Source of the DNA: Alloacidobacterium dinghuense
GTDB taxonomy: Bacteria; Acidobacteriota; Terriglobia; Terriglobales; Acidobacteriaceae
Assembly: GCF_014274465.1 (NCBI RefSeq)
Contig: NZ_CP060394.1
Coordinates: 1,798,001-1,862,000, forward strand
Length of the DNA stretch: 64,000 nt
Direction: 5' to 3'
Every line of letters begins with the position of its first letter. Positions within the stretch are counted from its first letter, which is position 1. Positions 1 through 48,856 of this stretch are shown here, one piece after another. The notes beneath the pieces were generated by a model that searched no databases, had not been told where the DNA came from, and saw nothing but the letters and a program-made list of their open reading frames with translations. The translations under genes were made by a program, and so were the position numbers.

Positions 1-1028
1 CCGGCGGCGACAATGGTGCGATTGCGATTCCCAAGAAGAAGGAATCAGAAACAGCGCCTCCGCCTCCGCCGCCAGAGCCCAAGGTGAAAAATCCGCCGGG
101 ACTGCAAAACTTCTCGCTGCGCGTCGATGTTCCGGTAGTGAACGTAGATGTGGGAGTCATTCTTGAGAAGACACATCAGTTCGTGCCGAACCTGCAAAAG
201 GACAATTTCCGAGTTTACGAAGACGGCGTGACTCAGGACATTACTAGCTTTCAGCGCATTCAAGCGCCAATTACGGCCGTTCTACTGGTTGAGTTTGCGG
301 CTAACAGTTACGCGTTCATCTATGACATGAGGAACGCTGCATACACCTTTGCTCAACAGTTAAAGGCGGATGACTATATCGCTGTCGTGACCTACGACAT
401 GCATACGCAGATTCTTACAGACTTTACGCAGGACAAGCGCCTCATTTATGAGTCGTTGAATTCGCTTACGATTCCCACCTGGCACGAGACGAATCTTTTC
501 GATGCGCTTTATACCACTCTGGACCGGCTGACTCGCGTCGAGGGACGCAAATACGTTGTCCTCATTTCGTCGGGTCGCGACACTTTCAGCAAGATCAATC
601 TTGATAAGGTCCTCCAGAAGATCAAGGCTACGCCGAACGTTACGATCTTCTCGATTGGCACGGGGCAGACGGCGCGCATCATGGCCGACGGCGCCGGCAT
701 GATGGGGCCGATCCGCAATCTGGACTATCTCCAGGCGGACAACCAGATGACGACCTTCGCCCGGATGACGGGTGGCCAGGCGTTTTTCCCTCGCTTTGTC
801 GGCGAGATGCCGGACATTTTTCACCAGATCAATGACACCATCCGCAACCAATATGTGCTGAGCTACCACCCAACAAATGTGAAGCAGGATGGCACTTATC
901 GCAAGCTGCGCGTCGAGCTGGTCGACAATGAAGGTCATCCATTGCGGATGCAGGATGAGAAGCACAAGCCTTTGAAGTACGACATCATTGCTCGCGACGG
1001 GTACCGGGCGAAGCAGGAAGTAGAATAG
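1..1028 (+). CDS. VWFA-related acidobacterial protein, 5'-truncated by window edge
   Basis: The reading frame is open from the first bases of the window, so the true start lies upstream; the GTG at 84 is internal. A proline-rich linker is followed by a von Willebrand factor A-like domain in which short oxidation- or adhesion-type beta strands alternate with helices. The pattern (a VNVDVGV segment, 'VPNLQKDNFRVYEDG', then 'YVVLISSGRDTFSK' and 'YVLSYHPTN') matches the VWFA-related family known mainly from Acidobacteria. These proteins are usually exported, but the signal peptide would be outside the window. Their function is unknown. The last 40 or so codons and the stop lie inside the left copy of a perfect 177-bp inverted repeat. 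The family assignment is confident; any role is not. Confidence 0.85.
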   Translation, partial: GGDNGAIAIPKKKESETAPPPPPPEPKVKNPPGLQNFSLRVDVPVVNVDVGVILEKTHQFVPNLQKDNFRVYEDGVTQDITSFQRIQAPITAVLLVEFAANSYAFIYDMRNAAYTFAQQLKADDYIAVVTYDMHTQILTDFTQDKRLIYESLNSLTIPTWHETNLFDALYTTLDRLTRVEGRKYVVLISSGRDTFSKINLDKVLQKIKATPNVTIFSIGTGQTARIMADGAGMMGPIRNLDYLQADNQMTTFARMTGGQAFFPRFVGEMPDIFHQINDTIRNQYVLSYHPTNVKQDGTYRKLRVELVDNEGHPLRMQDEKHKPLKYDIIARDGYRAKQEVE

Positions 1029-1081
1029 TTCTGGTCTGAAAACACGACTCAGGGATGGATCTTCTCGCCTCGTTCGAGCAT
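905..1081 (+). repeat. Left copy of a perfect 177-bp inverted repeat
   Basis: This stretch is the exact reverse complement of 10696-10872 over 177 bases with no mismatch that I can find. It contains the last codons of the VWFA gene and, on the minus strand, the last 10 codons of a YdeI-like gene. Identity stops abruptly at both ends. It is best explained as a duplicated breakpoint of an inversion of 1082-10695. Confidence 0.95.
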
Positions 1082-1899
1082 GCCAGTCACCCGCCCTCAA
1101 GGCCGAGGACTTCTGCTACTTCCACCACAAGACTCGCCGCCGCCCATCACCTGCGAACCAACCCTACGAGCCCTACACCGAACCCAAAGAAACCACCCTC
1201 AACCTGTCGCCACTCGAAGACGCCGACGCCATCCAACTGGCCATCTCCGACGTCGTCCTGGCATTAGCCGCCAACCGCATCGACACGCGTCGCGCCCGCA
1301 TCATCATCTACGGCCTGCAGGTAGCCTCGCAGAACAACCGTCACCGCGCCGCCATGGCCGTGCAGGAAGCAGCAGCCATTGAGCAGACCGTCCGCGAAGC
1401 CCACGAACACGCAGACGGCACCCTCATCGGCCCGGAAAAGCAGAGCCCCGAACCGGAAGAAGCCGCCGCCAGAAAACGCCCGCCCAGCCTCGGCGAAATC
1501 CTGCTCCGTCAAGCCGAAGAACTGAGCGCCCGAAAAGCAGAAGAGGCCAGGCTGAATGCGGAGGGAGAACAAGCCCTGCAACAAGAATCTGGAACTGAAT
1601 CAGCCAACAGCAACCAACCAGATGCGGGAAACTCCGACGCGCAATCTGCGCAAAGAGGAATAGAAGTCCATGCCGTCGCCGAAATGCCTTCGGCAATAGA
1701 ATCACGCGGAGCGACCTCAACATGCTTGCTGTCAGCGGCGGTAACGAGCGAAGCGGGCACGAATGGAGAATTCTTCAGGTCTTGGCAAGACTTACAGTGG
1801 ATTTACCGCCACTTGCATGACTGCGGTCCAGTCAGCTTCCGATCAACTTCAATGACTTTTCGTGGCGCGTCCACGCCAATCTCTAAATCAAGTAGTTGA
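1081..1899 (+). pseudogene. CYFHH-type conserved hypothetical, 5' end removed by inversion
   Basis: The frame is open from the repeat boundary and reads CQSPALKAEDFCYFHHK followed by an acidic/alanine-rich helical region (LEDADAIQLAISDVVLALA, then ARIIIYGLQVASQNNR). No start codon fits: the open frame runs back into the inverted repeat. The first ATG at 1354 is well inside the conserved part. The missing N-terminus, MYNECRHIFTSGRC, is found on the minus strand at 10868-10909, directly beyond the other repeat copy, and joins this fragment in frame. Short proteins with a Cys/His-rich N-terminus of this kind are common hypotheticals in Acidobacteria, and the two CxnC/H pairs suggest a small metal site. 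The last 60 or so codons look less protein-like and overlap the convergent gene at 1803, so the natural end may be earlier. Confidence 0.75.
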
Positions 1900-2045
1900 T
1901 CAGGCTGCACCATGCCGTGCCGAGGTGTGCCACAAATAGGACACGCTTCCGCCTTCAAAGTAATCTCTGCTCCACAGCACGCACAAAAAGCCGCCACGTT
2001 GTTCAATCTCCATACTGGGTTGATGTCTTTTAGATGAATTCGCAA
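1803..2045 (-). CDS. Small zinc-ribbon protein
   Basis: This 80-residue protein has a clear double CxxC zinc ribbon (CACCGAEITLKAEACPICG, about residues 22-40) followed by a short acidic tail. The function is unknown; zinc ribbons of this size usually mediate protein or nucleic-acid contacts. The only start in frame is a TTG at 2045. The region immediately upstream (2046-2100) is open in a different frame that begins with ATG (MDIEEISSSVSRL...). A frameshift or a wrong start is therefore possible, and the N-terminus is uncertain. It is convergent with, and overlaps, the end of the broken gene at 1081-1899. Confidence 0.5.
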   Translation of the reverse strand: MRIHLKDINPVWRLNNVAAFCACCGAEITLKAEACPICGTPRHGMVQPDQLLDLEIGVDAPRKVIEVDRKLTGPQSCKWR

Positions 2046-2115
2046 GCGCGAAGATTCGCGATAGACGTGATACCGAAGAACTTATCTCTTCTATATCCAC
2101 GCCTCTTTGTAAGAC

Positions 2116-2388
2116 TCATGCGGCGCGGTCCGCCCTGACTGTGGCTTCGATCTCCTGGCTCAGTCTTTGGTTGATGCGCGCCCTGTCGATCCAGAACGGT
2201 GCATGGACGCATTCCACTTCCAGCAGTTCCGCGTCTGGATCATATTTCCACTGAATCCTGGCCCCATCTTTCACCGCTTCTCCCGCCGGGCAATCAACGG
2301 AAATGCCATTCGCCGTCGCCTTCTTTCGCAACCGCGCAAAAATTGCGCGCGTAATTCCCCGAAATGTCAGCCTGGTACCGGACCACAT
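2116..2388 (-). CDS. Conserved-looking hypothetical protein
   Basis: I do not recognise a family. The 90-residue product begins MWSGTRLTFRGITRAIF and has a central stretch with the sense 'DAELLEVECVHAPFWIDRARINQRLSQEIEA', typical of a small alpha/beta soluble protein. An AGGAGAAG ribosome-binding site lies 4-5 bases before the ATG at 2388, which supports translation. It has no signal peptide or membrane segment. The gene lies upstream of the zinc-ribbon gene on the same strand (about 70 bases between them), so the two may be co-transcribed. No function is inferred. Confidence 0.55.
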   Translation of the reverse strand: MWSGTRLTFRGITRAIFARLRKKATANGISVDCPAGEAVKDGARIQWKYDPDAELLEVECVHAPFWIDRARINQRLSQEIEATVRADRAA

Positions 2389-2617
2389 CCAACTTCTCCT
2401 CTCGCACTTCTGAGTTCAAGGGGTGGCTCTCCGAAAATGAGAATGGGATCTTTATTATTAGGGCTGTCGATCCCCTGCAAGATAGACGGTGCAAGGCCGC
2501 CAATTGTTCGTTTAGGTCTATGCTCGTGCCCTGGAACCAGAGACAGTTTGAGTATCCACCGAAATCCTCCTCGGGACGATTGCCTTCCACAACCCTGCCT
2601 GTGCGGCCCACCGTTTT

Positions 2618-3892
2618 CTATTGGCAGCCGGGCTTCAACAGCTGCGGGGACAGGGCGTTCACCACGTTCGTGTTCGGATAGCTGTACGCATGATCGATTG
2701 CCGGCGAAGGCGATTGGAAAGCGAACCAGGGCAGCAACATGATGTTCTGCGTCTGGTAATCGAAGCCGTTCAGGGTAATCGGGTAGAGTGAATCGGGCAG
2801 GTTCTCGATCGCATCGCCACCTTCGAGAAGGTCCTGGCATTGGCCGTTTGGCGCCAGCCACCAGGGAGTAACGCCGTGAACGCCGTCGAAGGCCAGAAAC
2901 GGATCGTTAAAGGTTTCCGCCATTTCGTGGCTCAGTATGACGACGTCTGACAATACGCCTCCCAAAAAAGCGACGGGGGTGATCCAGCTCGAATAATTCA
3001 TCACGTAGAACCGGGGGCGGTTGCCGTTGGCCGGTATGCCCGGCTCAAAATCGAACATATGGAAACCGAGGGTGCAGCAATCGGAGCCGGTGTACAGGTA
3101 AGCGCTGGGAAACAAAAACGTCGAAACGTCTGCCGTGGTAATGTCTCCAGCCAGTTCCGCCGCACCCATTACGGTGGAATTGTCAACGGGGAAGGTTGGC
3201 GGGAACAACAGGTCAATGAACGTGTTGGAGTCGATCAAGACAGCCGCGCAGCACGAGCCATCCGGGTTCAGCGCGAACTGATAGGTCCCCTCAATCAAGG
3301 TCATCACGCGGGGCGTTTTCACGCTTGGCACCAGCAGCGTGTGCCAATCGTCTTCGGGTCCCTTGAAGAATTCAGCACGTTGAATGGCATCGGCGAATTG
3401 CGTCGGCCTTTCGCTGCTCGTGTAGCGCGAATACGAAAAGACAGGCGAATTTAGCACTCGTTGGACGTATTGCGTCGCGTCGGAGTAAAGGCGCTGCCCA
3501 TTCACGTAGCGCGGCGACCCGTCAAAGTTTCGCAGGTCAAGCGATACCGGAATGATCGGAGCGTTCAGGATCGTTGGACCATGGCCATCCGGCGACCGGC
3601 CGACCATGGCGTAGTACCACGTTTCGTTGAAATTGCCGAAGGGATCGTAACCCGGCGCGGTGAAGGACCCGGTGAAGTTTACTAATGTATCGATCCCCGG
3701 AATCGCACTTGCATTGACGCTCGCCAAGCGAGAGACTTTTGGCTTAACCGGCCCTGCCCAGACGCGCGGGCGAGCATTCGCTAACACCGATATCGGTATC
3801 TCGTCCGGTTCTTGCGCCGAAATATTCTGGACGACGCCGTACGACAAGATAGAAAGGCAAACCGCCGCAGAAAGCCTTTGTGTAAGTCTCAT
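2618..3892 (-). CDS. Secreted protein with HEMAE metal-site-like motif
   Basis: I chose the ATG at 3892, not the upstream one at 3955: it is preceded by GGAGAGGAG at good spacing and opens directly with a signal peptide (MRLTQRLSAAVCLSILSYG, cleavage near SAQ). The mature protein has about 400 residues. A segment VVILSHEMAETFNDP near residue 320 resembles the S-H-E-x-x-E/A-x-T-D-P motif of a poorly characterised group of exported, possibly zinc-dependent proteins. A paired Cys motif occurs twice (GSCCAA, SDCCTL), suggesting disulphides. Export is confident; a peptidase role is only a hypothesis from HExxE. There is no operon partner: a hairpin-rich spacer follows on the 5' side. Confidence 0.6.
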   Translation of the reverse strand: MRLTQRLSAAVCLSILSYGVVQNISAQEPDEIPISVLANARPRVWAGPVKPKVSRLASVNASAIPGIDTLVNFTGSFTAPGYDPFGNFNETWYYAMVGRSPDGHGPTILNAPIIPVSLDLRNFDGSPRYVNGQRLYSDATQYVQRVLNSPVFSYSRYTSSERPTQFADAIQRAEFFKGPEDDWHTLLVPSVKTPRVMTLIEGTYQFALNPDGSCCAAVLIDSNTFIDLLFPPTFPVDNSTVMGAAELAGDITTADVSTFLFPSAYLYTGSDCCTLGFHMFDFEPGIPANGNRPRFYVMNYSSWITPVAFLGGVLSDVVILSHEMAETFNDPFLAFDGVHGVTPWWLAPNGQCQDLLEGGDAIENLPDSLYPITLNGFDYQTQNIMLLPWFAFQSPSPAIDHAYSYPNTNVVNALSPQLLKPGCQ

Positions 3893-4508
3893 GTTCGTGC
3901 ACTCCTCTCCTTTGGTAATTAGCCGAGGGTGAGACTCTTTATCATATAGAAGCACGATTTGTCAACATAAATACCTTGTTTTCCGGGTTGTCTGAATTCA
4001 GGGTATGTTGCTCATTGCGCGAGGCTTGCAATTCAAGGACGGAGTTACTACTGATAAATGCGCGCGCTTGCGTTCAGTAATGTCCGTGTAGCCGGTGCAA
4101 ATCCGAGCTTGTCATGTGGTGGGGATCTTACGAAGCCGGATTTCCAACCGCGATTTTGTGAGTTGGGTAGAACCCTGGCCCAACGAGCGAACTTTGAGCG
4201 TTGCGCTAGAGAACCACATCCCGTAAACCAGCACAGAAAAAACAGAAAGAGGTGCAAAGCACCTCAAGGTAGAAGCAGAGGGCAATCGGGGTCCCCGAGA
4301 CGCGCGGTGTTCGCATCTTGGGGTGATCTTCAGCCCTCTGAATAAGATCGCCGTCGAGAAACGGCGTACCTTGCTGCCGCAGGCCGGGTCCCCAACACGC
4401 GCGAATTTCGCGTGTTGGGTGGAAGACCCATCCGCTCAAGGTCGAACGCAGCGGATCACTCCCGACGGCGCAAAGCGCGCTCCTTACTAGCCCCGGAGAA
4501 CCACCCAG
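3893..4508. other. Gene-free, hairpin-rich spacer
   Basis: No convincing gene is seen. It contains short inverted repeats: one with the arms CAGAGGGC and GCCCTCTG enclosing about 50 bases near 4277-4341, and a strong stem at 4391-4419. The promoter of the secreted HEMAE protein must lie just upstream of 3892. Confidence 0.5.
4391..4429. repeat. Hairpin element, variant of the GGGGCACCC-tail family
   Basis: An 11-bp perfect stem, CCCAACACGCG / CGCGTGTTGGG, encloses a 7-base loop. It is followed by TGGAAGACCC instead of the TGGGGCACCC tail seen in the other members, so membership is less certain. Confidence 0.5.
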
Positions 4509-6593
4509 CTAACCCGTAACCATCTCCGAGAAATCGGCAATCGAAGAAAACCCAACCAGCACCTTGGCAATCAATGCCAGACGGTTCTGCCGCACCGCCG
4601 GATCATCGACCATCACCATGACCTTATCGAAGAACAAATCCACATGCGGACGCAGCGTAGCAATCTGCTCCAGCGCCTCACGATACTTATGCTCCGAACG
4701 CAAATTCTCCACCACCGGAGCCAGCCGATCCGAATGCTCAAAGAGCCCGCGCTCGGCAGCATCGGCCAGCGACGAACTGCTAACAGCGCCATCTGAAGCA
4801 AGGCCCTTTTCCGAAGCCTGCCGCACAATGTTCTTCATCCGCTTGAACGCCGCCGAAATCGCGGCAAAATCCTCCGACCCGCGAACCGCAGTGAGTGCCT
4901 CGGCCCGCGCAATCGCATCGCGGACATCATTGAAACTCGCAGCCAGAACCGCATTCACCACGTCATAGTTGAAGCCGCGCACATCGCGCAGATAAAACTC
5001 AACCCGCTCGCGGAAGAACGCCGCAAGGGAGTCATGGATCGTAATTCCTGCTTCACCGGCAGCATTTCTCAAATGAGAGAACGTTAGTGATAATTCAGAC
5101 TCAGCCAGAATTTTCACCACACCATTCGCGGCGCGGCGCAAAGCAAACGGGTCCTTCGATCCAGTCGGCTCAAGTCCAATTGCAAACATGGCCGCAATGG
5201 ATTGAAAGCGATCGGCAATACCAAGTAGTTGCCCCTCAGGCGTCGGAGGAATCGCATCTTCTGTTGAAGCGGGCGTGTACTGCGAATAGATGGCCTGCGC
5301 AACCGCTTCGCCAAGACCCTGAGCTCGAGCATAAAGGCCACCGACGATTCCCTGAAGCTCGGTGAATTCCTTGACGAGTTCAGTAGTGAGATCAGTCTTG
5401 GCAAGTCGAGCAGCAGTCCGTAAGGCTTCGAAATCGAGCTTTTGTTGTCCAACCTCAATGCCCAGCTTTTGCGCGATTCGGTAAGTCGCCACCATCTTCT
5501 CGTAATAGCTGCCGAGGTCTTTTTGGAAAGTCACGGACTTGAGCATTTCGACGCGATCTTCGAGCGGAATCTTCTGGTCAAAGTGCCAGAAGAACCGAGC
5601 ATCGCTAAAGCGAGAGCGCAACACGCGCTCGTTGCCGTGCCGAATCACAGCAATTCCCTGCTCGTTCGCCTCAGTATTCAGCACCGCCAGGAAATGCGGA
5701 GCCAGCTTGCCATTCGCATCCTCAACGGCAAAGTACTTCTGGTGATCGCGCATCACCGTCACCAGTACTTCTTCCGGCAGCGAAAGATACTCCGCCTCGA
5801 AGTTGCCCAACAGCGCGGAAGGCCACTCCGTCAGATGCGTCACGGTATCGACCAGCGCCTCGTCCTCCCGCCACCGCGCGCCGGCAACCGTACGTGTCAC
5901 GGCATCGAGAGCCTTGCGAATCCGCTGCCGCCTCGCCTCAACACCGACCAGCACCTTCGCCGATTCCAGCGCTGCAACGTAGTCGGCAGGCTTGTTGATC
6001 GTCACCGCATGATCGCCGTGCAGAATGCGATGCCCATAGCTCAGATTGCCCGCATGCACGCCGGCAAACTCCACAGGAACGATCGCATGATTGAGAATCG
6101 CCAGCAGCCACTTCACCGGACGCACAAACCGCTCCGGCTTGCCTGCGCGCCAGTACATGTTCTTCGGCCAATAGAGCGAAGCCAACTCCTTCGGGAGCTG
6201 CTCGGTCAGTACCTCAGCAGTCGACCGTCCCTTGCGCAGCACCGCAGCCGAAACATACTCGCCCTTCGCAGTCGTAACCTTCTGCAGCGCGCCAACCTCA
6301 ACGCCAGCCTTCTTTGCAAACGCCAGCGCCGCCGGAGTCGCCGCACCATTCTTAAACGCGACCGCCCAAGAAGGCCCGGTCAGCTGCTCCTTAGCATCCG
6401 CCTGCTCGGCCAGAACGCCGCTCACCAGCACGGCCAGACGCCGAGGCGTCGAATAGCTGGCCACAACCGAACTACTCAGCAACCTCTCACGCGCGAGCAG
6501 CTCTTCCACGCGCCGCGCAAGCTCGGCCTGCGCCGCGGCAACCATGCGCGCGGGAATCTCTTCAAGTCCTACTTCAAGGAGAAAATCTGGCAT
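4509..6593 (-). CDS. glyS: Glycine--tRNA ligase beta subunit
   Basis: The product is the beta chain of the alpha2beta2-type glycyl-tRNA synthetase, which helps bind tRNA-Gly and is needed for charging glycine in the cytoplasm. The N-terminus MPDFLLEVGLEEIPARM is the diagnostic start of GlyS, and segments such as 'YGHRILHGDHAV', 'VTVMRDHQKYFAVED', 'GNERVLRSRFSDARFFW' and the C-terminal anticodon-binding-like helical region (ending FSEMVTG) follow the family. The length, 694 residues, is normal. It sits 3 bases after glyQ on the same strand, the usual operon order. Both lie inside the 9.6-kb segment inferred to have inverted. Confidence 0.97.
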   Translation of the reverse strand: MPDFLLEVGLEEIPARMVAAAQAELARRVEELLARERLLSSSVVASYSTPRRLAVLVSGVLAEQADAKEQLTGPSWAVAFKNGAATPAALAFAKKAGVEVGALQKVTTAKGEYVSAAVLRKGRSTAEVLTEQLPKELASLYWPKNMYWRAGKPERFVRPVKWLLAILNHAIVPVEFAGVHAGNLSYGHRILHGDHAVTINKPADYVAALESAKVLVGVEARRQRIRKALDAVTRTVAGARWREDEALVDTVTHLTEWPSALLGNFEAEYLSLPEEVLVTVMRDHQKYFAVEDANGKLAPHFLAVLNTEANEQGIAVIRHGNERVLRSRFSDARFFWHFDQKIPLEDRVEMLKSVTFQKDLGSYYEKMVATYRIAQKLGIEVGQQKLDFEALRTAARLAKTDLTTELVKEFTELQGIVGGLYARAQGLGEAVAQAIYSQYTPASTEDAIPPTPEGQLLGIADRFQSIAAMFAIGLEPTGSKDPFALRRAANGVVKILAESELSLTFSHLRNAAGEAGITIHDSLAAFFRERVEFYLRDVRGFNYDVVNAVLAASFNDVRDAIARAEALTAVRGSEDFAAISAAFKRMKNIVRQASEKGLASDGAVSSSSLADAAERGLFEHSDRLAPVVENLRSEHKYREALEQIATLRPHVDLFFDKVMVMVDDPAVRQNRLALIAKVLVGFSSIADFSEMVTG

Positions 6594-6596
6594 CGT

Positions 6597-7619
6597 CTAA
6601 TTCTGGCTTTCTTTGGCTTCCTGCTGCGCCGCGTAGGCTTTGGCCACTCCAACCGCAAGATTGCGGATACGTGCAATCACCCCCACGCGCTCCGTCACCG
6701 AAATCGCGCCGCGCGCATCAAGCAGGTTAAACAGGTGCGAGCACTTCAGGCACAGATCGTAAGCACTCAGCACCGGAAAGCGCCTTACTTCTACCACGAC
6801 ATCCCGCTCTGGTTCCGCCGGACCATTGTCGTGCAGAATCCGGTCGTGCGCTTTCTTGCCCGCTTCGAGCTTCCGCAGGTCGTTGAAACTCGCAAGCAGC
6901 GTCTGGCACTCAGCCTCGTACATCCGCAGATGCTCCCACAGCTTCTCAACCTCGGCCGCCTCAAAGTTGTAGACCGAGAACTGCAGCTCCTCCTCGAATC
7001 GCACTTCGCCGTACGTCACCGCGCGGCCAGAAATTGGGTCGCGCGCCCACACAATGTCGTAGATCGACTCCACATCCTGCAGAAAGGCCGCAATGCGCTC
7101 CAGCCCATACGTAATCTCGCCCGAGATCGGATCGAGATCGATGCCGCCGCACTGCTGAAAGTACGTGAATTGCGTAATCTCGAGCCCGTCCAGCATCACC
7201 TGCCAGCCAATGCCCCACGCGCCCAGCGTCGGCGACTCCCAGTTGTCTTCCTCGAACTTGATATCGTGCTCACGCAGATCGATCCCGATCGCAGCCAGCG
7301 ACTCAAGGTACACGTCCTGAATATCCGCCGGCGGCGGCTTCAGAATCACCTGAAATTGCGTGTGCTTGTACAGCCGGTTGGGATTCTCCCCATACCGCCC
7401 ATCCGCAGGCCGCCGCGACGGCTGCGCGTAAGCAATGTTGATCGGCTTCGTCCCCAGCACCCGCAAAAACGTGTCCGGAGACATCGTGCCAGCGCCCACT
7501 TCCACGTCATAAGGCTGCTGCAAAACGCACCCACGCTCCGCCCAGAAGCTCTGCAGGCGAAACAGCAATTGCTGAAAAGTAAGGGGTTCTTTCTTAGTCA
7601 GAACGGAGGCAGATGCCAC
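6597..7619 (-). CDS. glyQ: Glycine--tRNA ligase alpha subunit
   Basis: This is the catalytic alpha chain of the bacterial tetrameric glycyl-tRNA synthetase, activating glycine with ATP. Family landmarks are the N-terminal [19 protein letters not shown], then [20 protein letters not shown], '[20 protein letters not shown]', and '[20 protein letters not shown]'. The start is not an ATG: a GTG at 7619 has a GAGAG box about 8 bases upstream, while a TTG at 7625 is an alternative giving two more residues. It forms a tight two-gene operon with glyS downstream. The C-terminus ends in a charged, alanine-rich helix. Confidence 0.97.
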
Positions 7620-7685
7620 GCACAAATCTCTCTAATCTCTGAATGAGTCGCTGATGCGATTCTAAACGATTCACATCTACATGAA

Positions 7686-7739
7686 TTGTCATCCTGACCC
7701 CGACTCTGAGTGCAACGAAGAGGAAGGGGAAGGATCTGC
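7686..7739. repeat. Degenerate CATTCTGAG...GAAGAATC-type repeat
   Basis: The segment reads GTCATCCTGA...GAGTGCAACGAAGAGG...AAGGATCTGC, a diverged member of the short interspersed repeat that appears better preserved near 15971 and 11818. It fills most of the spacer between glyQ and recO. Confidence 0.5.
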
Positions 7740-7776
7740 TTTTCCTCCTCAGTCAGCACCTACTCTCCACAGGCGA

Positions 7777-8520
7777 TCATCCACCAAGCTTCGCCAACGC
7801 AACCGCCGTTGTCAGCCTCCGCTCCAGATGCCGCTCCAAACCCTGTATTGCGAACCGCCGAAGATCAGCCGCACGGCTACGCGGCCAATCTTCGTTCGCA
7901 AACACTGTAATCGGCTGCCGAAAGATGCGCAGCGCCATCGCCAGAGACTCAACGGAAAGCGTAGAACTCGCCAGCCTCTTATGATCAACACACACCAACC
8001 CGTCCGCATGCGCGTGCCAATACGCAGGCCGCCCGACAAACGCCTCGCCACAGACCGTGCAATGCAGAACATCGGGCATCCACCCCATCAGCCGCGTGAT
8101 CCAAAGCGCAAAGTAAGTCACCGGCATCCAGATACCGCCCGTTCTCGTGTGATCGAGAACCGCCAGCACCAACCGAAAGACGGCATCCTGCGGATCACGA
8201 TCCGGCAAAATCTCCTCCAGCACCTCGGAATAGAACGCCAACGCCGCCGCCCGCGTGTAATCCACCGAATCAGAAAGCGGAGATGTAACAATCTCAAACG
8301 AATCCAGCCGAACCAGCTCCTGCCGAGGCTTCTCCGCATAATTGGCCAGAACGTGCGTCATCGGCTCCAGCGCTCCGCCAAAACGCCGCCGGCTCTTGCT
8401 GGCAGCCTTGGCAACGCCCTTGATCTTCCCCTGATCACGCGTCAGCAGTGACACGATCAGGTCGGCCTCATGAATAGGCCAGGTGCGGAGCACAACGGCT
8501 TCAGCCTGATGGACAGTCAC
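7777..8520 (-). CDS. recO: DNA repair protein RecO
   Basis: RecO works in the RecFOR pathway, annealing single strands and helping RecA load onto SSB-coated DNA. The N-terminal OB-fold region (AEAVVLRTWPIHEADLIVSL, then GKIKGVAKAA) and the central helical region are typical, as is a zinc-finger segment around residues 155-185 (HCTVCGEAF... followed by VCVDHK), where the fourth ligand position is His rather than Cys. The length, 247 residues, fits. The start is a GTG at 8520. It is on the same strand as glyQ-glyS with a spacer of about 150 bases, so it may be transcribed separately. Confidence 0.93.
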   Translation of the reverse strand: MTVHQAEAVVLRTWPIHEADLIVSLLTRDQGKIKGVAKAASKSRRRFGGALEPMTHVLANYAEKPRQELVRLDSFEIVTSPLSDSVDYTRAAALAFYSEVLEEILPDRDPQDAVFRLVLAVLDHTRTGGIWMPVTYFALWITRLMGWMPDVLHCTVCGEAFVGRPAYWHAHADGLVCVDHKRLASSTLSVESLAMALRIFRQPITVFANEDWPRSRAADLRRFAIQGLERHLERRLTTAVALAKLGG

Positions 8521-8634
8521 TCAATGCAGCATAGAACACGAGCAGCTCACTCACTTTGACCGCTAAACCAACGGTGTCACCGTGTGCTACTCTTCTCCAC
8601 TAGAAAACGGTTACCCAACGGAAGCCACAACAAT

Positions 8635-9669
8635 ATGAACCAAGCTATAAAGGTCCTCCTGGTTGCCCTGCTCTCACTACCTCTCTTGTGTACAGCGCAG
8701 CAACCACAGGCCCTCACCCTGACAGGCGACTACGAAGGAACGCACGATCCCTCCATCATGAAGGAAGGCAAAACTTGGTACGTCTTCGCCACCGGCAAAA
8801 CACCCGACGGCGGTCAGTTCCAGATCCGTTGCTCCGAAAACCTGACGGACTGGAAGCTCTGCGGTCACGTCTTCGACCAGATCCCCGACTGGATCCACAA
8901 GGACAGCCCCGGCACCGTCGACCTCTGGGCGCCGGACATCTCGTACGAAAATGGCGAATACCGCATCTACTACGCCTATTCCCTCTTCGGAAAGAACACC
9001 TCTGGCATCGCGCTGGCAACAAACAAAACACTCGACCGCTTTAGCCCAGACTACAAATGGGTCGACCACGGCCTTGTCCTGCGTTCGGTAGAAAGCGACG
9101 ACTTCAACGCCATCGACCCCAACTTTGTTCTAGATGCTCAAGGCCACGCGTGGCTCGCCTTCGGCAGCTTCTGGAGCGGCATCAAGATGCGCTGCCTCGA
9201 CGAGAAAACCGGACTGCTCTCCAAAGAAGACACGCACCTGTACTCACTTGCCTCCCGCAGTAAACCTGCCGACGCAGCACCCGCAAAACCGGGTCTGCCC
9301 CCGGACTGGGAGGCAGTCGAAGCTCCCTTCATCGTCCGCCACGGCGACTACTACTATCTCTTCGTTTCCTGGGATCTCTGCTGTCGCGGCACGAAAAGCA
9401 CCTATCGAACTATGGTTGGGCGCGCAAAGAAAATCACCGGGCCGTACTTGGACAAGCAAAGCAAATCGATGGCAGAAGGAGCCGGCTCAGAATTGCTTAG
9501 CGGCAATACCCGCTGGCTTGGCCCAGGCGGCGAGTCGGTCTGGATGCAACCAGACGATCACGACCTGCTGGTTTTTCACGCCTATGATGCCAAAGCCGGA
9601 AAACCGGCGCTGCAGATTTCTACCATCGTCTGGCGTGACGGCTGGCCACGGGCGGCTTTACAGCAATAG
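8635..9669 (+). CDS. Secreted GH43-family arabinanase/arabinosidase-like hydrolase
   Basis: I place the start at the ATG at 8635, which opens with a signal peptide (MNQAIKVLLVALLSLPLLC); the frame extends further upstream without a better start. The five-bladed beta-propeller of GH43 is recognisable, with the three acidic residues in their expected contexts: Asp38 in THDPS (general base), Asp161 in NAIDPN (pKa modulator) and Glu229 in VEAPF (acid). Motifs WAPDISYENGEYRIYYAYS and FGSFWSGIKM resemble endo-1,5-alpha-L-arabinanases. The likely role is release of arabinose oligomers from pectin outside the cytoplasm; exact substrate choice is an inference. No transporter or regulator is adjacent. 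Confidence 0.88.
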   Translation: MNQAIKVLLVALLSLPLLCTAQQPQALTLTGDYEGTHDPSIMKEGKTWYVFATGKTPDGGQFQIRCSENLTDWKLCGHVFDQIPDWIHKDSPGTVDLWAPDISYENGEYRIYYAYSLFGKNTSGIALATNKTLDRFSPDYKWVDHGLVLRSVESDDFNAIDPNFVLDAQGHAWLAFGSFWSGIKMRCLDEKTGLLSKEDTHLYSLASRSKPADAAPAKPGLPPDWEAVEAPFIVRHGDYYYLFVSWDLCCRGTKSTYRTMVGRAKKITGPYLDKQSKSMAEGAGSELLSGNTRWLGPGGESVWMQPDDHDLLVFHAYDAKAGKPALQISTIVWRDGWPRAALQQ

Positions 9670-9703
9670 AAACGGCGCTCGGATTACGGCGCCGCTTTCA
9701 AAA
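9670..9703. terminator. Possible bidirectional terminator
   Basis: A CGGCGC/GCGCCG stem lies between the convergent GH43 and DUF2934 genes. The stem is short and no long T run follows, so this is a weak call. Confidence 0.3.
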
Positions 9704-9732
9704 CAGTTAGAAGATTAAGTTAAAGTATAGCT

Positions 9733-9951
9733 TTAGGAAGCCATCTGGTTCAGCTCGCGCTCGGCGCGTAGCCAGTCGTGTTCAGCCTGTCCATCGGTAT
9801 ATCCGCGCTCAGCCCAGAATTTCTGCGCGAGAGCGGCAATCTGATCGTGACTTGGGTGAATAACAATTGGCTCTGCCGCCTCAACGGTCGTCTTCTTCTT
9901 AGCAGGAGCCTTACGGGGTTTCGTCGTCTTTTCGGCTTTGGGGGTTGCCAT
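9733..9951 (-). CDS. DUF2934 small protein
   Basis: A 72-residue protein begins with a lysine/alanine/proline-rich basic stretch (residues 1-30) and ends with the DUF2934 signature: 'IAALAQKFWAERGYTDGQAEHDWLRAERELN', with the W-x-x-A-E motif. DUF2934 proteins are small, often plasmid- or stress-related, and of unknown function. The basic N-terminus could bind nucleic acid, but nothing shows that directly. It is convergent with GH43 and divergent from the YdeI-like gene. Confidence 0.8.
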   Translation of the reverse strand: MATPKAEKTTKPRKAPAKKKTTVEAAEPIVIHPSHDQIAALAQKFWAERGYTDGQAEHDWLRAERELNQMAS

Positions 9952-10140
9952 TCCTAATGATCCTCCACGGAGATGTTCTCTAGTTCCCAGAGATATTCTC
10001 TATTTTATGATGCCGCAGCCGTGAGCGCATCCGGGAGAGGAAAATGCAGTCCGGGCATTGACTAAAAAGGTCCCCGCATCGCTATTTTTCAGTAAGTTAC
10101 AGAATTGCAGTCGAGCGATATCCGAGCGAAAATTCCGCAG

Positions 10141-10728
10141 ATGGCTGAGAAACCCAAATCCGAGCTGCCCATTGTGGCGTTCAGCAACCAAAAAGCCTGG
10201 GAGGGGTGGCTGAAGGCAAATCATCGAACCTCGTCTGGAACCTGGATGCAGTTGGCGAAAAAGGCCTCTGACACACCTTCAATCACGTATGCCGAGGCCA
10301 TTGAGACCTCCCTCTGCTATGGCTGGATCGATGGGCAGAAACGGAGCCTCAACTCCGAGGCGTGGCTGCAGAAGTTCACTCCTCGCGGGCGCAAGAGTAT
10401 CTGGTCAAAGATCAACCGCGAAAAAGCTCTCGCTCTCATCGAATGCGGCAAGATGAAGGCCGCCGGTATGGCAGAAGTAGAACGCGCGAAGCAAGACGGA
10501 CGATGGGAGCAAGCCTATGATTCACCCGCCAGAGCCGCTGTTCCTGCGGACCTACAGGCGGCTCTGAACAAGAACCCTAAGGCAAAAGCCTTTTTCGCGA
10601 CGTTGGAAGGTCGCAATCGCTACGCCATCCTCTGGCGCGTGCAAACCGCAAAAAAGGCGGAAACACGGGCCAGACGAATCACACTCTTTGTAGAAATGCT
10701 CGAACGAGGCGAGAAGATCCATCCCTGA
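10141..10728 (+). CDS. YdeI/OmpD-associated family protein
   Basis: The product belongs to the YdeI-like family: the N-terminal 'FSNQKAWEGWLKANHRTSSGTWMQL', the central ETSLCYGWIDGQKRSL and QKFTPRGRKSIWSKINREKA, and the C-terminal 'RRITLFVEMLERGEKIHP' are all typical. Its biochemical role is unsettled; members are soluble and small. I use the ATG at 10141 (195 residues); a TTG at 10105 would add 12 residues. No clear ribosome-binding site is visible. The last 10 codons and stop fall within the right copy of the 177-bp inverted repeat, showing that this gene once ended convergently against the VWFA gene now at the left edge. Confidence 0.85.
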   Translation: MAEKPKSELPIVAFSNQKAWEGWLKANHRTSSGTWMQLAKKASDTPSITYAEAIETSLCYGWIDGQKRSLNSEAWLQKFTPRGRKSIWSKINREKALALIECGKMKAAGMAEVERAKQDGRWEQAYDSPARAAVPADLQAALNKNPKAKAFFATLEGRNRYAILWRVQTAKKAETRARRITLFVEMLERGEKIHP

Positions 10729-10872
10729 GTCGTGTTTTCAGACCAGAACTATTCTACTTCCTGCTTCGCCCGGTACCCGTCGCGAGCAATGATGTCGTAC
10801 TTCAAAGGCTTGTGCTTCTCATCCTGCATCCGCAATGGATGACCTTCATTGTCGACCAGCTCGACGCGCAGC
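10696..10872 (-). repeat. Right copy of the perfect 177-bp inverted repeat
   Basis: Exact reverse complement of 905-1081. It carries the natural 3' end of the YdeI-like gene and, on the minus strand, a displaced copy of the last 40 or so codons and stop of the VWFA gene. Confidence 0.95.
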
Positions 10873-10909
10873 GTCCGCTGGTGAAGATGTGTCGGCACTC
10901 GTTGTACAT
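10868..10909 (-). pseudogene. Detached N-terminus of the CYFHH gene
   Basis: Reading the minus strand from an ATG at 10909 gives MYNECRHIFTSGRC. This ends at the repeat boundary exactly where the fragment at 1081 begins (CQSPALK...). Joined through a shared TGC, the two make one uninterrupted frame with a Cys/His-rich N-terminus of the expected type. The short length alone would not support a call; the in-frame fit does. Confidence 0.75.
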
Positions 10910-11030
10910 TGGGTTTGGCTCCCCCCTATATTTTTCGTAAATTCTTCTTTTTGCTGGTGGTTAGGGTGCGTTCTGCGCGGTCTTTTTTACCCGATTCCTG
11001 AGAGCGTGTTTATTGGGGCGATGGTGTCAT

Positions 11031-11059
11031 CCCATGTCTTTTCAAGACATGGGGCACCC
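11031..11059. repeat. Hairpin element with GGGGCACCC tail
   Basis: Stem CCCATGTCTT / AAGACATGGG with a TTC loop; the 3' arm runs into the constant tail GGGGCACCC. Confidence 0.8.
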
Positions 11060-11098
11060 GGCTTATATATGGTGCGCGCTGCGCGCGGTCTTCTTAGA

Positions 11099-11144
11099 CC
11101 CACCCTACGTTCTCGAAAAGACGAGAACGTAGAATGGGGCACCC
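11099..11144. repeat. Hairpin element with GGGGCACCC tail
   Basis: An 11-bp stem, CTACGTTCTCG / CGAGAACGTAG, around AAAAGA is preceded by CCCACC and followed by AATGGGGCACCC. The stem sequence is unrelated to that at 11031 but the outer parts agree. Confidence 0.8.
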
Positions 11145-11243
11145 GTTTTCTTGCCTGATCGTGGCTTGTGGCTCTCCCGTACGTTTTGGCTAAATTCTTC
11201 AGATGATTTGGGTTACTGGCTCGCGTGAGGCGGTGGAAAACCC

Positions 11244-11257
11244 GGGGCTAAAGCCCC
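11244..11257. repeat. GGGGCTAAAGCCCC hairpin
   Basis: Short perfect stem with the core GGGCTAAAGCCC; it recurs four more times in the window. Confidence 0.7.
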
Positions 11258-11277
11258 TTTGACTGCAGGTTTTGTTT

Positions 11278-11297
11278 CACCGGGCTAAAGCCCGGTG
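11278..11297. repeat. CACCGGGCTAAAGCCCGGTG hairpin
   Basis: Same core as 11244 with a longer stem, followed by CTTCTACCC, a tail also found after the copy at 18467. Confidence 0.7.
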
Positions 11298-11350
11298 CTT
11301 CTACCCGCGCTTCGTACTTGCTCAAGATGCATTTTGCCTAAAACACGAAA

Positions 11351-11376
11351 GCCCGCCATCTCTGGCGGGCTTTTTT
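11351..11376 (+). terminator. Strong intrinsic terminator without an obvious gene
   Basis: GCCCGCC (11351-11357) pairs with GGCGGGC (11364-11370) around ATCTCT and is followed directly by six T residues. The 5' AAA before the stem would allow weaker use in the other direction. No protein gene ends just upstream on either strand. Confidence 0.8.
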
Positions 11377-11511
11377 CTCTCTATATCCAGTTTAGCAATT
11401 TGGATGGTAATAGTACGCCAATTTGCCTGCGCTTTTTTCGCTTTGGAATGTGCGGGTTGGAAGATTTCTTGCTGATCATCCTCTTGACAAAGTAGAAGCG
11501 GGGAAAAGCCC

Positions 11512-11525
11512 GGGGCTGAAGCCCC
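11512..11525. repeat. GGGGCTGAAGCCCC hairpin
   Basis: Member of the GGGCT(A/G)AAGCCC family. Confidence 0.7.
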
Positions 11526-11544
11526 TCTTTGCGGAGGTCCTAAC

Positions 11545-11562
11545 GCGGGGCTGAAGCCCCGC
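11545..11562. repeat. GCGGGGCTGAAGCCCCGC hairpin
   Basis: Member of the GGGCT(A/G)AAGCCC family, 20 bases after the previous copy. Confidence 0.7.
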
Positions 11563-11648
11563 TCTTTCACCGCCGTCCTGCTGCGCAGGACAAACGGTCC
11601 AACTCCAACCTCAGTCAACGGGATCACCATTGATTTCTTTTACTCAGG

Positions 11649-11765
11649 GGGCTTGACCAAAATGCCATCGAAGCTGTACAGCGATATAAATTTCAGCCAG
11701 CGACCTATCAAGGCAAGCCCGTCCCGGTTGAAGTAAACGTAGAAGTCAATTTTCTTGTTTATTGA
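11649..11765 (+). pseudogene. Remnant of a TonB C-terminal domain
   Basis: The frame translates as GLDQNAIEAVQRYKFQP followed by ATYQGKPVPVEVNVEVNFLVY and a stop at 11763. This is the last third of a TonB energy-transducer domain, with the familiar A-V-x-x-Y/W-K/R-F-x-P-A and GKPVPV...VNF signature. The upstream part of the domain, the proline-rich linker and the membrane anchor are absent, and no start codon precedes it. I read it as a decayed gene end. The neighbouring gene at 11877 carries a related but complete domain. Confidence 0.7.
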
Positions 11766-11817
11766 AGTTCGCAGATGACTGAAGGTCATTGAGGGTTGCG
11801 GCCTGCGCTCATCGCAT

Positions 11818-11851
11818 GGATTCTTCGGCGGATTGCGCCTCAGAATGACGG
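11818..11851. repeat. GATTCTTC...CAGAATGACGG repeat
   Basis: In the reverse direction it reads CCGTCATTCTGAGGCGCA...GAAGAATCC, an interspersed repeat that recurs near 15971, 18541 and 18842. It lies just beyond the stop of the TonB_C/TPR gene. Confidence 0.6.
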
Positions 11852-11876
11852 ACCGATGAAAATGGTTCGTTGACGG

Positions 11877-12821
11877 TCACAGCAGCTTTTGTGCGGCTTC
11901 GTGCAGCTTGGCTGCTTCGGTTGGCTTGCCCATACTGATCAGGATTTGTGCGTGGAAGTTCAGGATGGAGCTGAGGATGCGTGAGTCGAAGCTCTTTTGT
12001 TGCGGGGTGCGTGGGACGTCGAAGGTGGCCCATTCGAGATCTTCGGCTTTGGCCAGATCCTGATCGGCTCCTTGCGGGTTGCCGGTGAGCGCGCGGGCTT
12101 GTCCGCGCAGCCCGTAGGCGACGGCCTTGTCGGAGATTGGGATGAAGCCGAGATTGGAAGCAGCGATGGCTTTCTCGGCATAGGTGAGCGCTTCTTTCGG
12201 ACGCTTGTCGAGCAGCAGAGCGGATGCGTAGTAGTTGTACGCGGCCACTTTTTTGCTGTCGTTGCGCGGCAGGGATAAGCCGTCGGCTGCTTCTGCTGCC
12301 CGCTGACATGTGGCGAGAGCGTTGAGGTTGGATTTGGCGGCGGAGTCGGCTGCGCATTTCTCGAGCAGAGGCACGATCCGGCGGTAGGCTTTCGCGTCGG
12401 GGTCATTGGTGAGGTTGCTGAAGGCGGCGTATCGGAGAGTGAACCATGCGCAGACAGGCTGCCCATTCTTCACGAAGGGATAAAGGCTGATGTGTTTGGC
12501 GGCGTTGGCGTAGAGGTCGATCAGGCCGGGTGGTCCGCTCAGGGGCTTGATGGAGAGGACATGACCGTTCATGTCCACGTCGGCCCGAAAGGCGACATCC
12601 CCTGAGACGCGCTGGTTCACGACGGTTGCCACGGTTTCATTTCCATCCTGAACGGAGACAGGGCGAGACTTTACATGGAGCCACGCGATGGTCTCGTCTA
12701 CTTCGATCGGAGCGGCGGTGCAGGGATTGGCTTGCGCTTTCGCGTCGAGACAAGTGAGAAACAACAGCAGCCATAGGGAACTGAAGCCTATTGCGTCGCG
12801 TAAACGCGTCTGAGGCTGCAT
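11877..12821 (-). CDS. Exported protein with TonB_C-like domain and TPR-like helices
   Basis: A signal peptide (residues 1-31, ending AKAQA) precedes a domain that follows the TonB C-terminal pattern: 'VSGDVAFRADVDMNGHVLSIKPLSG', then 'LYANAAKHISLYPFVKNGQPV' (about residues 73-125). After residue 140 the protein is all-helical with repeated A-L-x-x-A/Y-E-K-A-I pairs typical of tetratricopeptide repeats ('KEALTYAEKAIAASN', 'GLRGQARALTGN', 'ILISMGKPTEAAKLHEAA'). It would act in the periplasm. The combination suggests a scaffold rather than a TonB motor, since there is no N-terminal membrane anchor with a proline-rich spacer. No function is known to me. Confidence 0.65.
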   Translation of the reverse strand: MQPQTRLRDAIGFSSLWLLLFLTCLDAKAQANPCTAAPIEVDETIAWLHVKSRPVSVQDGNETVATVVNQRVSGDVAFRADVDMNGHVLSIKPLSGPPGLIDLYANAAKHISLYPFVKNGQPVCAWFTLRYAAFSNLTNDPDAKAYRRIVPLLEKCAADSAAKSNLNALATCQRAAEAADGLSLPRNDSKKVAAYNYYASALLLDKRPKEALTYAEKAIAASNLGFIPISDKAVAYGLRGQARALTGNPQGADQDLAKAEDLEWATFDVPRTPQQKSFDSRILSSILNFHAQILISMGKPTEAAKLHEAAQKLL

Positions 12822-12923
12822 TGGGGAAATGTACCTGTATTTATGCCTGCGTGTATAGCGGTTCGTGTTTTGCGTCGGGGCGCGGAGCTACACTCTCTGG
12901 CACAGGGTTCGGGAGAAGACACG

Positions 12924-13292
12924 ATGAATCGAGAACTGGCTTTGAAGATTGTGCTGGGCGTGGTGGGCGTGGTGTTCCTGGCGTTGGTGTACCCCATGGT
13001 TGTTTTTGTGAGGCAGGAGCCGGCATTGTCGATGATGCTGAGCCTTTACGTTACGCTTGGCATCTTCCTGCTGCTGGCTATTCGCAATCCGTCGGCGCAT
13101 CGCAGCCTGATTGCGTTCACGGCGTGGTCGAGCTTTGCGCATGCTGCTCTTATGGGGACGCAGGCGCTGTGCAACATGATTGCGCATGGGGAGCTGATCG
13201 GCGTAGGCGTTCTCATTGTTATCGGCATTACGTTGATTGCGCTGGCACCGGCGGCGAGTTCGTCGCGAAGCGCTGTTTATCAGGCGCATTGA
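12924..13292 (+). CDS. Small integral membrane protein, DUF6632-like
   Basis: I place the start at the ATG at 12924, which has GGGAGAAG upstream. The 122-residue protein has four hydrophobic segments (about residues 8-28, 35-52, 64-82 and 92-110), with the conserved-looking 'EPALSMMLSLYVTLGIFLLLAIRNPSAHRSLI' in the middle. It resembles DUF6632 membrane proteins, which have no assigned function. It is transcribed divergently from the TonB_C/TPR gene and convergently to the permease at 13323. Confidence 0.7.
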   Translation: MNRELALKIVLGVVGVVFLALVYPMVVFVRQEPALSMMLSLYVTLGIFLLLAIRNPSAHRSLIAFTAWSSFAHAALMGTQALCNMIAHGELIGVGVLIVIGITLIALAPAASSSRSAVYQAH

Positions 13293-13322
13293 CGCGTAGG
13301 TGCGGTCTTTCGCTCATGTTCG

Positions 13323-15764: not shown

Positions 15765-15870
15765 CGGGCGCACCTCTCAGAGCATTGGAGCATTTACTTT
15801 GCCAGTGTTTGAGGCGGGATCCGGTGGTTTTGAGGCTGATTTTATGGGCGTTAGTGCGTGGATTGCCGAT

Positions 15871-15902
15871 CCCAGGTCTCAGAATCGAGACCTGGGGCAC
15901 CC
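15871..15902. repeat. Hairpin element with GGGGCACCC tail
   Basis: Stem CCCAGGTCTC / GAGACCTGGG around AGAATC, then GCACCC. Identical stems occur at 26647 and 27363, and one with a single change in the loop at 17685. Confidence 0.85.
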
Positions 15903-15970
15903 AGGCGTGTTCGGATTTGGGGAGAGGGTGTTCGGAAGCGAACACGGGCGTGCCGGTGCAGGCATCGCTG

Positions 15971-15997
15971 AGATTCTTCGCTGCGCTCAGAATGAGG
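15971..15997. repeat. AGATTCTTCGCTGCGCTCAGAATGAGG repeat (27 bases)
   Basis: The best-preserved member of the third repeat family: in reverse it reads CCTCATTCTGAGCGCAGCG followed by AAGAATCT. It ends 14 bases before the stop of the pentapeptide gene. Confidence 0.7.
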
Positions 15998-16011
15998 AAA
16001 CTTACTTCGCG

Positions 16012-42963: not shown

Positions 42964-43000
42964 ACTGTTTCGGAAAAACCGTAATCAGTATGGCACGGGT

Positions 43001-45739: not shown

Positions 45740-45773
45740 GCTTTCTCCGATTGAATGCGGTTGAATTTGTAGC

Positions 45774-48515: not shown

Positions 48516-48856
48516 ACTTCCTCCGGCTTGGCGCTCAGGACTGCGCCGATGGCGTCGGCCATGTGGTTCCATTTTTCTGTCTCAGTATGCAGGCGGCGGC
48601 GGCCAGCGGCAGTGAGCCGGTAGAACTTGGCCTTGCGATTGTTCTCGCTTTGACCCCATTCGCTTGCGATCCAACCCTCGTGTTCCAGTCGATATAGCGC
48701 GGGATAAAGCGAACCCTGCTGGATCTCAAGCCGATTGCCGGAGATTTGCTGGATACGCAGAAGCACACCGTATCCATGCAGCGGGCTGAGGGAAACAGCT
48801 TTGAGCACCATCATGTCCAGGGTGCCTTGCAGAAGATCATTTTGTTTGGGCGCCAC
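48512..48856 (-). CDS. PadR-family transcriptional regulator
   Basis: A 114-residue winged-helix repressor of the PadR type: 'NDLLQGTLDMMVLKAVSLSPLHGYGVLLRIQQIS' is the classic N-terminal signature, and GSLYPALYRLEHEGWI is the recognition helix and wing region. It probably represses its own operon (padR-permease-permease, overlapping or closely spaced). The GTG start at 48856 has AGGAG about 8 bases upstream, inside a palindrome, so repressor binding would cover the ribosome-binding region. Confidence 0.93.
   Translation of the reverse strand: MAPKQNDLLQGTLDMMVLKAVSLSPLHGYGVLLRIQQISGNRLEIQQGSLYPALYRLEHEGWIASEWGQSENNRKAKFYRLTAAGRRRLHTETEKWNHMADAIGAVLSAKPEEV

Follow-up and report, generated by a model that had tools for sequence, protein, structure and literature searches.

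How did the ends of two genes come to be present twice, once at each end of a 9.6-kb segment and in opposite orientations? The question arises at the left end of a 64,000-nucleotide stretch of the chromosome of Alloacidobacterium dinghuense (contig NZ_CP060394.1, positions 1,798,001 to 1,862,000), which is the DNA that we analysed and which we call the window; positions below are those of the window. We found that the segment (1082-10695; 9,614 bp), in which glyS and glyQ lie, was inverted in the recent past. We propose that it was inverted in a single event with a staggered break at one site (break A), a nearly blunt break at the other (break B), fill-in, and end joining, and we give this account a probability of about 75%.

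The original prediction, which was made from the sequence alone, held that positions 905-1081 exactly match the reverse complement of 10696-10872. Indeed, all 177 of 177 bases agree, and the identity ends a few bases beyond either side (a repeat search reports the pair as 900-1081/10696-10877, at 99%). In the organism's own genome, which is one contig of 6,271,114 bases, the 177-bp sequence occurs in these two places only. A chance origin is ruled out, as the expectation under an equal-base model is about 6e-98. The left copy (plus strand) consists of 124 nt from the end of a VWFA gene (905-1028), 20 nt between two stop codons, and 33 nt from the end of a YdeI-like gene (1049-1081). The right copy (minus strand) has the identical composition, reversed. 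The VWFA gene (3-1028, plus strand; TIGR03436, acidobact_VWFA) starts before the window and keeps its 3' end, with its stop ending at 1028, inside the left copy; the VWFA end in the right copy is dead. Conversely, the YdeI/OmpD-associated-like gene (10105-10728, plus strand; PF13376) ends within the right copy, where 10696-10728 is the end in use, and the copy of its end at 1049-1081 is dead. With 0 differences in 177 positions, the two copies have diverged by less than about 1.7% (a rough 95% bound), while congeners differ from the window by about 14-18% in the 228-281 nt that include the left copy and its surroundings. Gene conversion could likewise hold two repeat copies identical. The repeat search found no other inverted repeats of at least 60 bp in the 64-kb window and no other direct or inverted repeats of at least 25 bp in 1-13000, so breaks A and B have no long homology in common.

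If the segment was inverted, then relatives should show it the other way round. We compared the locus with three congeners: the metagenome-assembled genomes JAATFH bin_2 (G001, 77% complete) and JABDHA (G002, 59% complete), and Acidobacterium sp. S8 (G003). The loci are L051, L052, and L053; the last of these (like L023) is from G001, whose contig ends inside glyS. In all three congeners, the order is VWFA(+), YdeI-like(-), DUF2934(+), recO(+), glyQ(+), glyS(+), and at L051 and L052 it continues to a permease (-). The stretch from VWFA to the permease in the window is reversed relative to all three. Thus, the relatives have the glyS-glyQ-recO block turned round and the VWFA and YdeI-like genes as convergent neighbours, both of which had been predicted. 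In G001 (L053), the convergent junction gives a single match. Its agreement with the left copy ends precisely at 1081 and its agreement with the right copy starts precisely at 10872, and its two sides lead into VWFA and into YdeI. Each of the three congeners has one match to the repeat, and the pair does not flank the block in these uninverted relatives, two of which (G001 and G002) are incomplete genomes. These single matches speak against homologous recombination between repeats older than the lineage. A search with VWFA gave 52 named loci (flanks of up to 10 kb, with many contigs shorter), and among these the block genes adjoin VWFA only in the three congeners, so other genera are uninformative about which orientation came first. 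The polarity follows from the duplicated repeat, together with a split gene and the strand composition, which we describe below.

The split gene belongs to a family that we call CYFHH. A C-terminal part without a start, which is a pseudogene fragment, lies at 1081-1899 on the plus strand, and an N-terminal remnant (MYNECRHIFTSGR) lies at 10868-10909 on the minus strand, with the next TGC lying in the repeat. Joining 10909-10868 (minus strand) to 1084 gives an open frame. Eight other places in the genome match the joined protein well, at 66-96% identity: in six, the match begins at residue 1 and stays in one frame; in one, it begins at residue 5; and in one, it is in two pieces in different frames. 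(With three weaker places and the window's own, there are 13 matches in all.) When the halves were searched separately, they lay side by side in seven of the eight paralogs, as expected if the start-less gene at 1081 had lost its N-terminus to 10868-10909; in the remaining one (L142), the match to the upstream half ends 59 nt short. There is therefore no need to suppose that the halves came from two different CYFHH copies, although they may have done so. The paralog most alike near the junction is L138, with 98% identity on the upstream side (190 nt) and 94% on the downstream side (479 nt). This copy of CYFHH was destroyed, while the conserved part is still in a single frame in at least six paralogs.

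The details of the junction are less tidy than first thought. The halves had been said to fuse in frame through a shared TGC, and the fused frame is open, but it is one codon short of the paralogs and the TGC is coincidental. All eight paralogs that aligned over the junction (10 loci were given; L111 and L112 yielded no alignment) carry an extra codon (AAA or AAG) ahead of the TGC. This implies that at least two bases were lost and that the right-hand TGC belongs to the repeat, as it is the repeat's own sequence (GCTGCGCG; AAGCTGCGCG in VWFA). Two paralogs read GGACGCAAATGCCA at the junction; relative to these, the window lacks 2 to 6 bases, the lower figure being the one that counts the overlaps as part of the gene. 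These overlaps, which we read by eye against the paralogs, are GC and AT. In L051 and L052, the interval from glyS to the permease gave no CYFHH match, and the G001 contig ends earlier. Break B is therefore in DNA that is missing from L051 and L052, and we deduced its ancestral sequence from the paralogs. This also means that an intact CYFHH gene at the relatives' locus, which was part of the original prediction, did not materialize: L051 and L052 are without one, L053 stops inside glyS, and the intact forms are paralogs.

CYFHH is a dispersed family, represented in the window at 10868-11477 (minus strand) and from 1081 to about 1600 (plus strand) and elsewhere by L136-L143. Its proteins share about 180 conserved N-terminal residues and have varying C-terminal tails, as if the frame had entered flanking DNA; the protein has no match in Pfam. 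Upstream is a leader block with a sharp 5' edge (TGTCAAG) in eight of eight aligned copies, including the window's (L142 was not aligned). The leader matches 26 places in the genome, as well as two in G003, five in G002, and one in G001. A terminator-like hairpin at 11351-11376 (GCCCGCC...GGCGGGC followed by a run of T, plus strand) is kept in the leader block. The leader and gene together look like an amplified, perhaps mobile, unit. We considered whether this dispersed family caused the inversion and rejected the idea, as break B lies about 40 nt into the coding frame and not at the family's sharp 5' edge.

The strand composition of the segment also records its former orientation. The G+T skew of the block is -0.104 per base, while 266 of 266 (overlapping) windows of equal length from the 82 kb around it, with the block excluded, are positive (minimum +0.003, mean +0.075). 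An unbounded search for the most negative segment returned -113 to 10725, which is near 1082-10695. Read in the direction of VWFA, the congeners have few negative 1-kb bins at L051 (1 of 21) and L052 (3 of 21), and two of six at L023. Among mechanically called open reading frames of at least 900 nt (a list that leaves out glyQ, recO, and VWFA), 21 of 23 to the right of the block have positive third-position skew on the plus strand, and all three in the block have negative skew, one of them by 0.005 only. Measured on the coding strand, the third-position skew of glyS, glyQ, and recO is +0.41, +0.35, and +0.57 in the window, as compared to 0.44, 0.36, and 0.49 in L051; 0.35, 0.21, and 0.26 in L052; and 0.37, 0.23, and 0.09 in L053. 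The three genes thus keep the leading-strand sign of the congeners, and the similar values imply that they show no adjustment to their new orientation yet.

Which way the genes now face relative to replication can be estimated from the rest of the chromosome. There is a single DnaA-family match, at 5.13 Mb, and the sampled genome skew switches sign near 5.13 Mb and between 1.57 and 1.88 Mb. Judging from these two features, the plus strand at this locus is probably the leading strand, and glyS, glyQ, and recO probably went from co-directional to head-on with the replication fork, near the terminus. The block had been described as carrying three essential genes. All three are present, and glyS and glyQ are essential, but recO usually is not.

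The repeat, the gene order, the skew, and the split gene would all be explained by a single event with a staggered break A and a near-blunt break B, inversion, fill-in, and joining. At break A, two single-strand breaks separated by about 177 nt would have fallen across the convergent ends of VWFA and the YdeI-like gene, and a nearly blunt break, with a loss of 2 to 6 nt, would have fallen near codons 13-15 of one member of the multi-copy CYFHH family. The segment would then have been reversed, the 177-nt single-stranded tails from break A would have been filled in to leave one copy at each junction, and the ends would have been sealed with an overlap of about 2 bp at each junction, perhaps by Ku/LigD end joining. 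The genome encodes Ku (PF02735; 157 bits) and, in a frame of 901 amino acids, LigD_N (PF13298; 155 bits), so end joining was probably possible. VWFA and the YdeI-like gene keep whole ends because the break was duplicated. As the gap between the two stops makes up just 20 of the 177 bases, a simple break would, at most other positions, have severed one of the genes.

Several observations weigh against this account or limit it. The skew of G001 (L053/L023) is of mixed sign, with two of six bins opposite. Elsewhere in the genome, the skew of 40 sampled windows is uneven, ranging from -0.105 to +0.111, and positive skew at 3.76-4.39 Mb and negative skew at 5.96 Mb depart from a simple two-arm pattern, so the skew argument holds locally. 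Furthermore, a block flipped in assembly would have the same skew and gene order as one inverted in nature. For break B, the ancestral state is a reconstruction from paralogs, since L051 and L052 are without CYFHH and L053 falls short. The putative LigD is recognized by its LigD_N domain, and overlaps of 2 bp are common by chance.

Staggered breaks with fill-in, as originally proposed, make the best single-event model, but other routes would leave the same sequence. One of these has two steps: a template switch placed an inverted 177-bp copy of the VWFA/YdeI junction in CYFHH, and homologous recombination between the copies then inverted the segment. The copies are perfect and inverted, as this requires; 177 bp is long enough for RecA-type recombination; and the lack of any differences is compatible with gene conversion between the copies. 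We consider this route unlikely, as it needs two events where one is enough, and the available sequence of the uninverted congeners has a single copy of the junction (although L051 and L052 lack CYFHH, so the intermediate could not show there). If the route were correct, the end product would not differ in sequence, and the block could continue to flip. Alternatively, the inversion might have been replicative, with a stalled fork and template switches guided by microhomology copying the 177 bp during the inversion, and no staggered nicks. The 2-bp overlaps at both junctions and the loss of a few nucleotides suit either route. We think replication is quite an unlikely source, given that no feature of the sequence prefers template switching to staggered breaks and that the genes for Ku and LigD_N make end joining available.

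It would be far more surprising if the inversion were an assembly error, with the true order ancestral and the block flipped by the assembler at the repeat copies. The block's composition matches the ancestral orientation, which is also what a false flip would give. However, a false flip requires that a 177-bp inverted copy was already present in CYFHH, which leaves the repeat unexplained, and a repeat of 177 bp is probably short relative to the reads behind a one-contig assembly of 6.27 Mb. Another improbable reading is that the inversion is so young that both orientations coexist, with RecA flipping glyS-glyQ-recO between co-directional and head-on by way of the repeat. Then a scar of end joining would have become an accidental switch on essential genes. 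Finally, a mobile or invertible element is an unlikely cause of the inversion: the repeat consists of two gene ends and has two genomic copies, and we found no recombinase among the scanned proteins (none was sought elsewhere). Specifically, no site-specific recombinase was identified among the 10 proteins scanned with Pfam or the 7 scanned with NCBIfam; the scans did not extend to the genes left of the window or the rest of the genome.

In the inverted block, the minus strand carries glyS (4509-6593; PF02092), glyQ (6597-7625; PF02091), recO (7777-8520; PF11967 and PF02565), and a gene for a DUF2934 protein (9733-9951). Between glyS and break B is a gene for a 445-amino-acid protein (2618-3955, minus strand), which has no match in Pfam or NCBIfam at E = 0.01 and no match in the congener loci. 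A family-43 glycoside hydrolase (8584-9669, plus strand; PF04616) has an equivalent relative position in L051 and has no match in L052 or L053. The first conserved marker to the right of the block is a gene that we take, from its sequence, to encode an ABC-type permease (13323-15773, minus strand); this is the permease that follows glyS in L051 and L052. No Rfam family matched 1-16000 at E values up to 0.1. Far from the inversion, at 43000-48600, are two long open reading frames in tandem on the minus strand (43004-45739 and 45777-48572). They have 300-nt stretches in common that are 71-87% alike at a spacing of about 2.78 kb, so the pair is probably a tandem gene duplication.

The locus preserves well a bacterial inversion without long homology: break A can be read in a relative, break B can be read in paralogs, and the skew agrees. 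It also shows how two genes that meet at a cut site can both survive when the break is duplicated. Because essential genes were turned round, the case has modest wider interest, as a natural pair of orientations for studying essential genes turned against replication.

Inversions that duplicate a breakpoint have already been described in other organisms, and the A. dinghuense case is a further clean example; one literature search for such inversions in Acidobacteria turned up a single paper, on an unrelated matter. An excerpt of one report gives an inverted duplication at the breakpoints as the mark of these inversions, with reference to Furuta et al. 2011 (PMC12368964). DNA duplication associated with inversion (DDAI) is named in Thermus tengchongensis 15W, in a text that in part points to Helicobacter and Thiomonas (PMC8963470), and a breakpoint-duplicating inversion in Helicobacter is cited in a passage of another (PMC4671568). 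In Drosophila subobscura, inverted duplications were interpreted as staggered breaks, according to the relevant excerpt (PMC5080602). What these descriptions share is found here as well. The segment lies in the opposite orientation in all three congeners, and DNA from one break that is not otherwise repeated is present at both derived breakpoints. The breaks have no long homology between them, and the overlaps are 2 bp each (at break B, judging from paralogs). Both junctions rebuild the ancestral sequence, A directly in G001 and B by way of paralogs, one codon short.

As far as these partial sources go, the system of Furuta et al. 2011 is like ours in that a segment was inverted between two sites with no relation to each other, part of one site is found in inverted copies at both ends, and genes were made or broken at the breaks. 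In contrast, ours is in another phylum, the duplication left both convergent gene ends intact, and glyS and glyQ are in the block. The excerpt on Thermus DDAI likewise describes a bacterial inversion with gene changes near its breakpoints, but that one is large-scale and in one strain, while ours is 9.6 kb and is observed between species (PMC8963470). D. subobscura resembles our case in having inverted duplications only at the breakpoints of derived arrangements, and differs, in the part of the account that we cite, in being a eukaryote with polymorphic inversions (PMC5080602). Skew has been used in bacteria as a record of genes inverted from co-directional to head-on (PMC6220195, in part), and an excerpt of another paper disputes this (PMC9098844). 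As in those cases, a local reversal of skew marks the inverted genes here. The inversions in the former excerpt were mostly inferred from skew (PMC6220195), whereas in A. dinghuense, the junctions and the order in congeners are seen directly.

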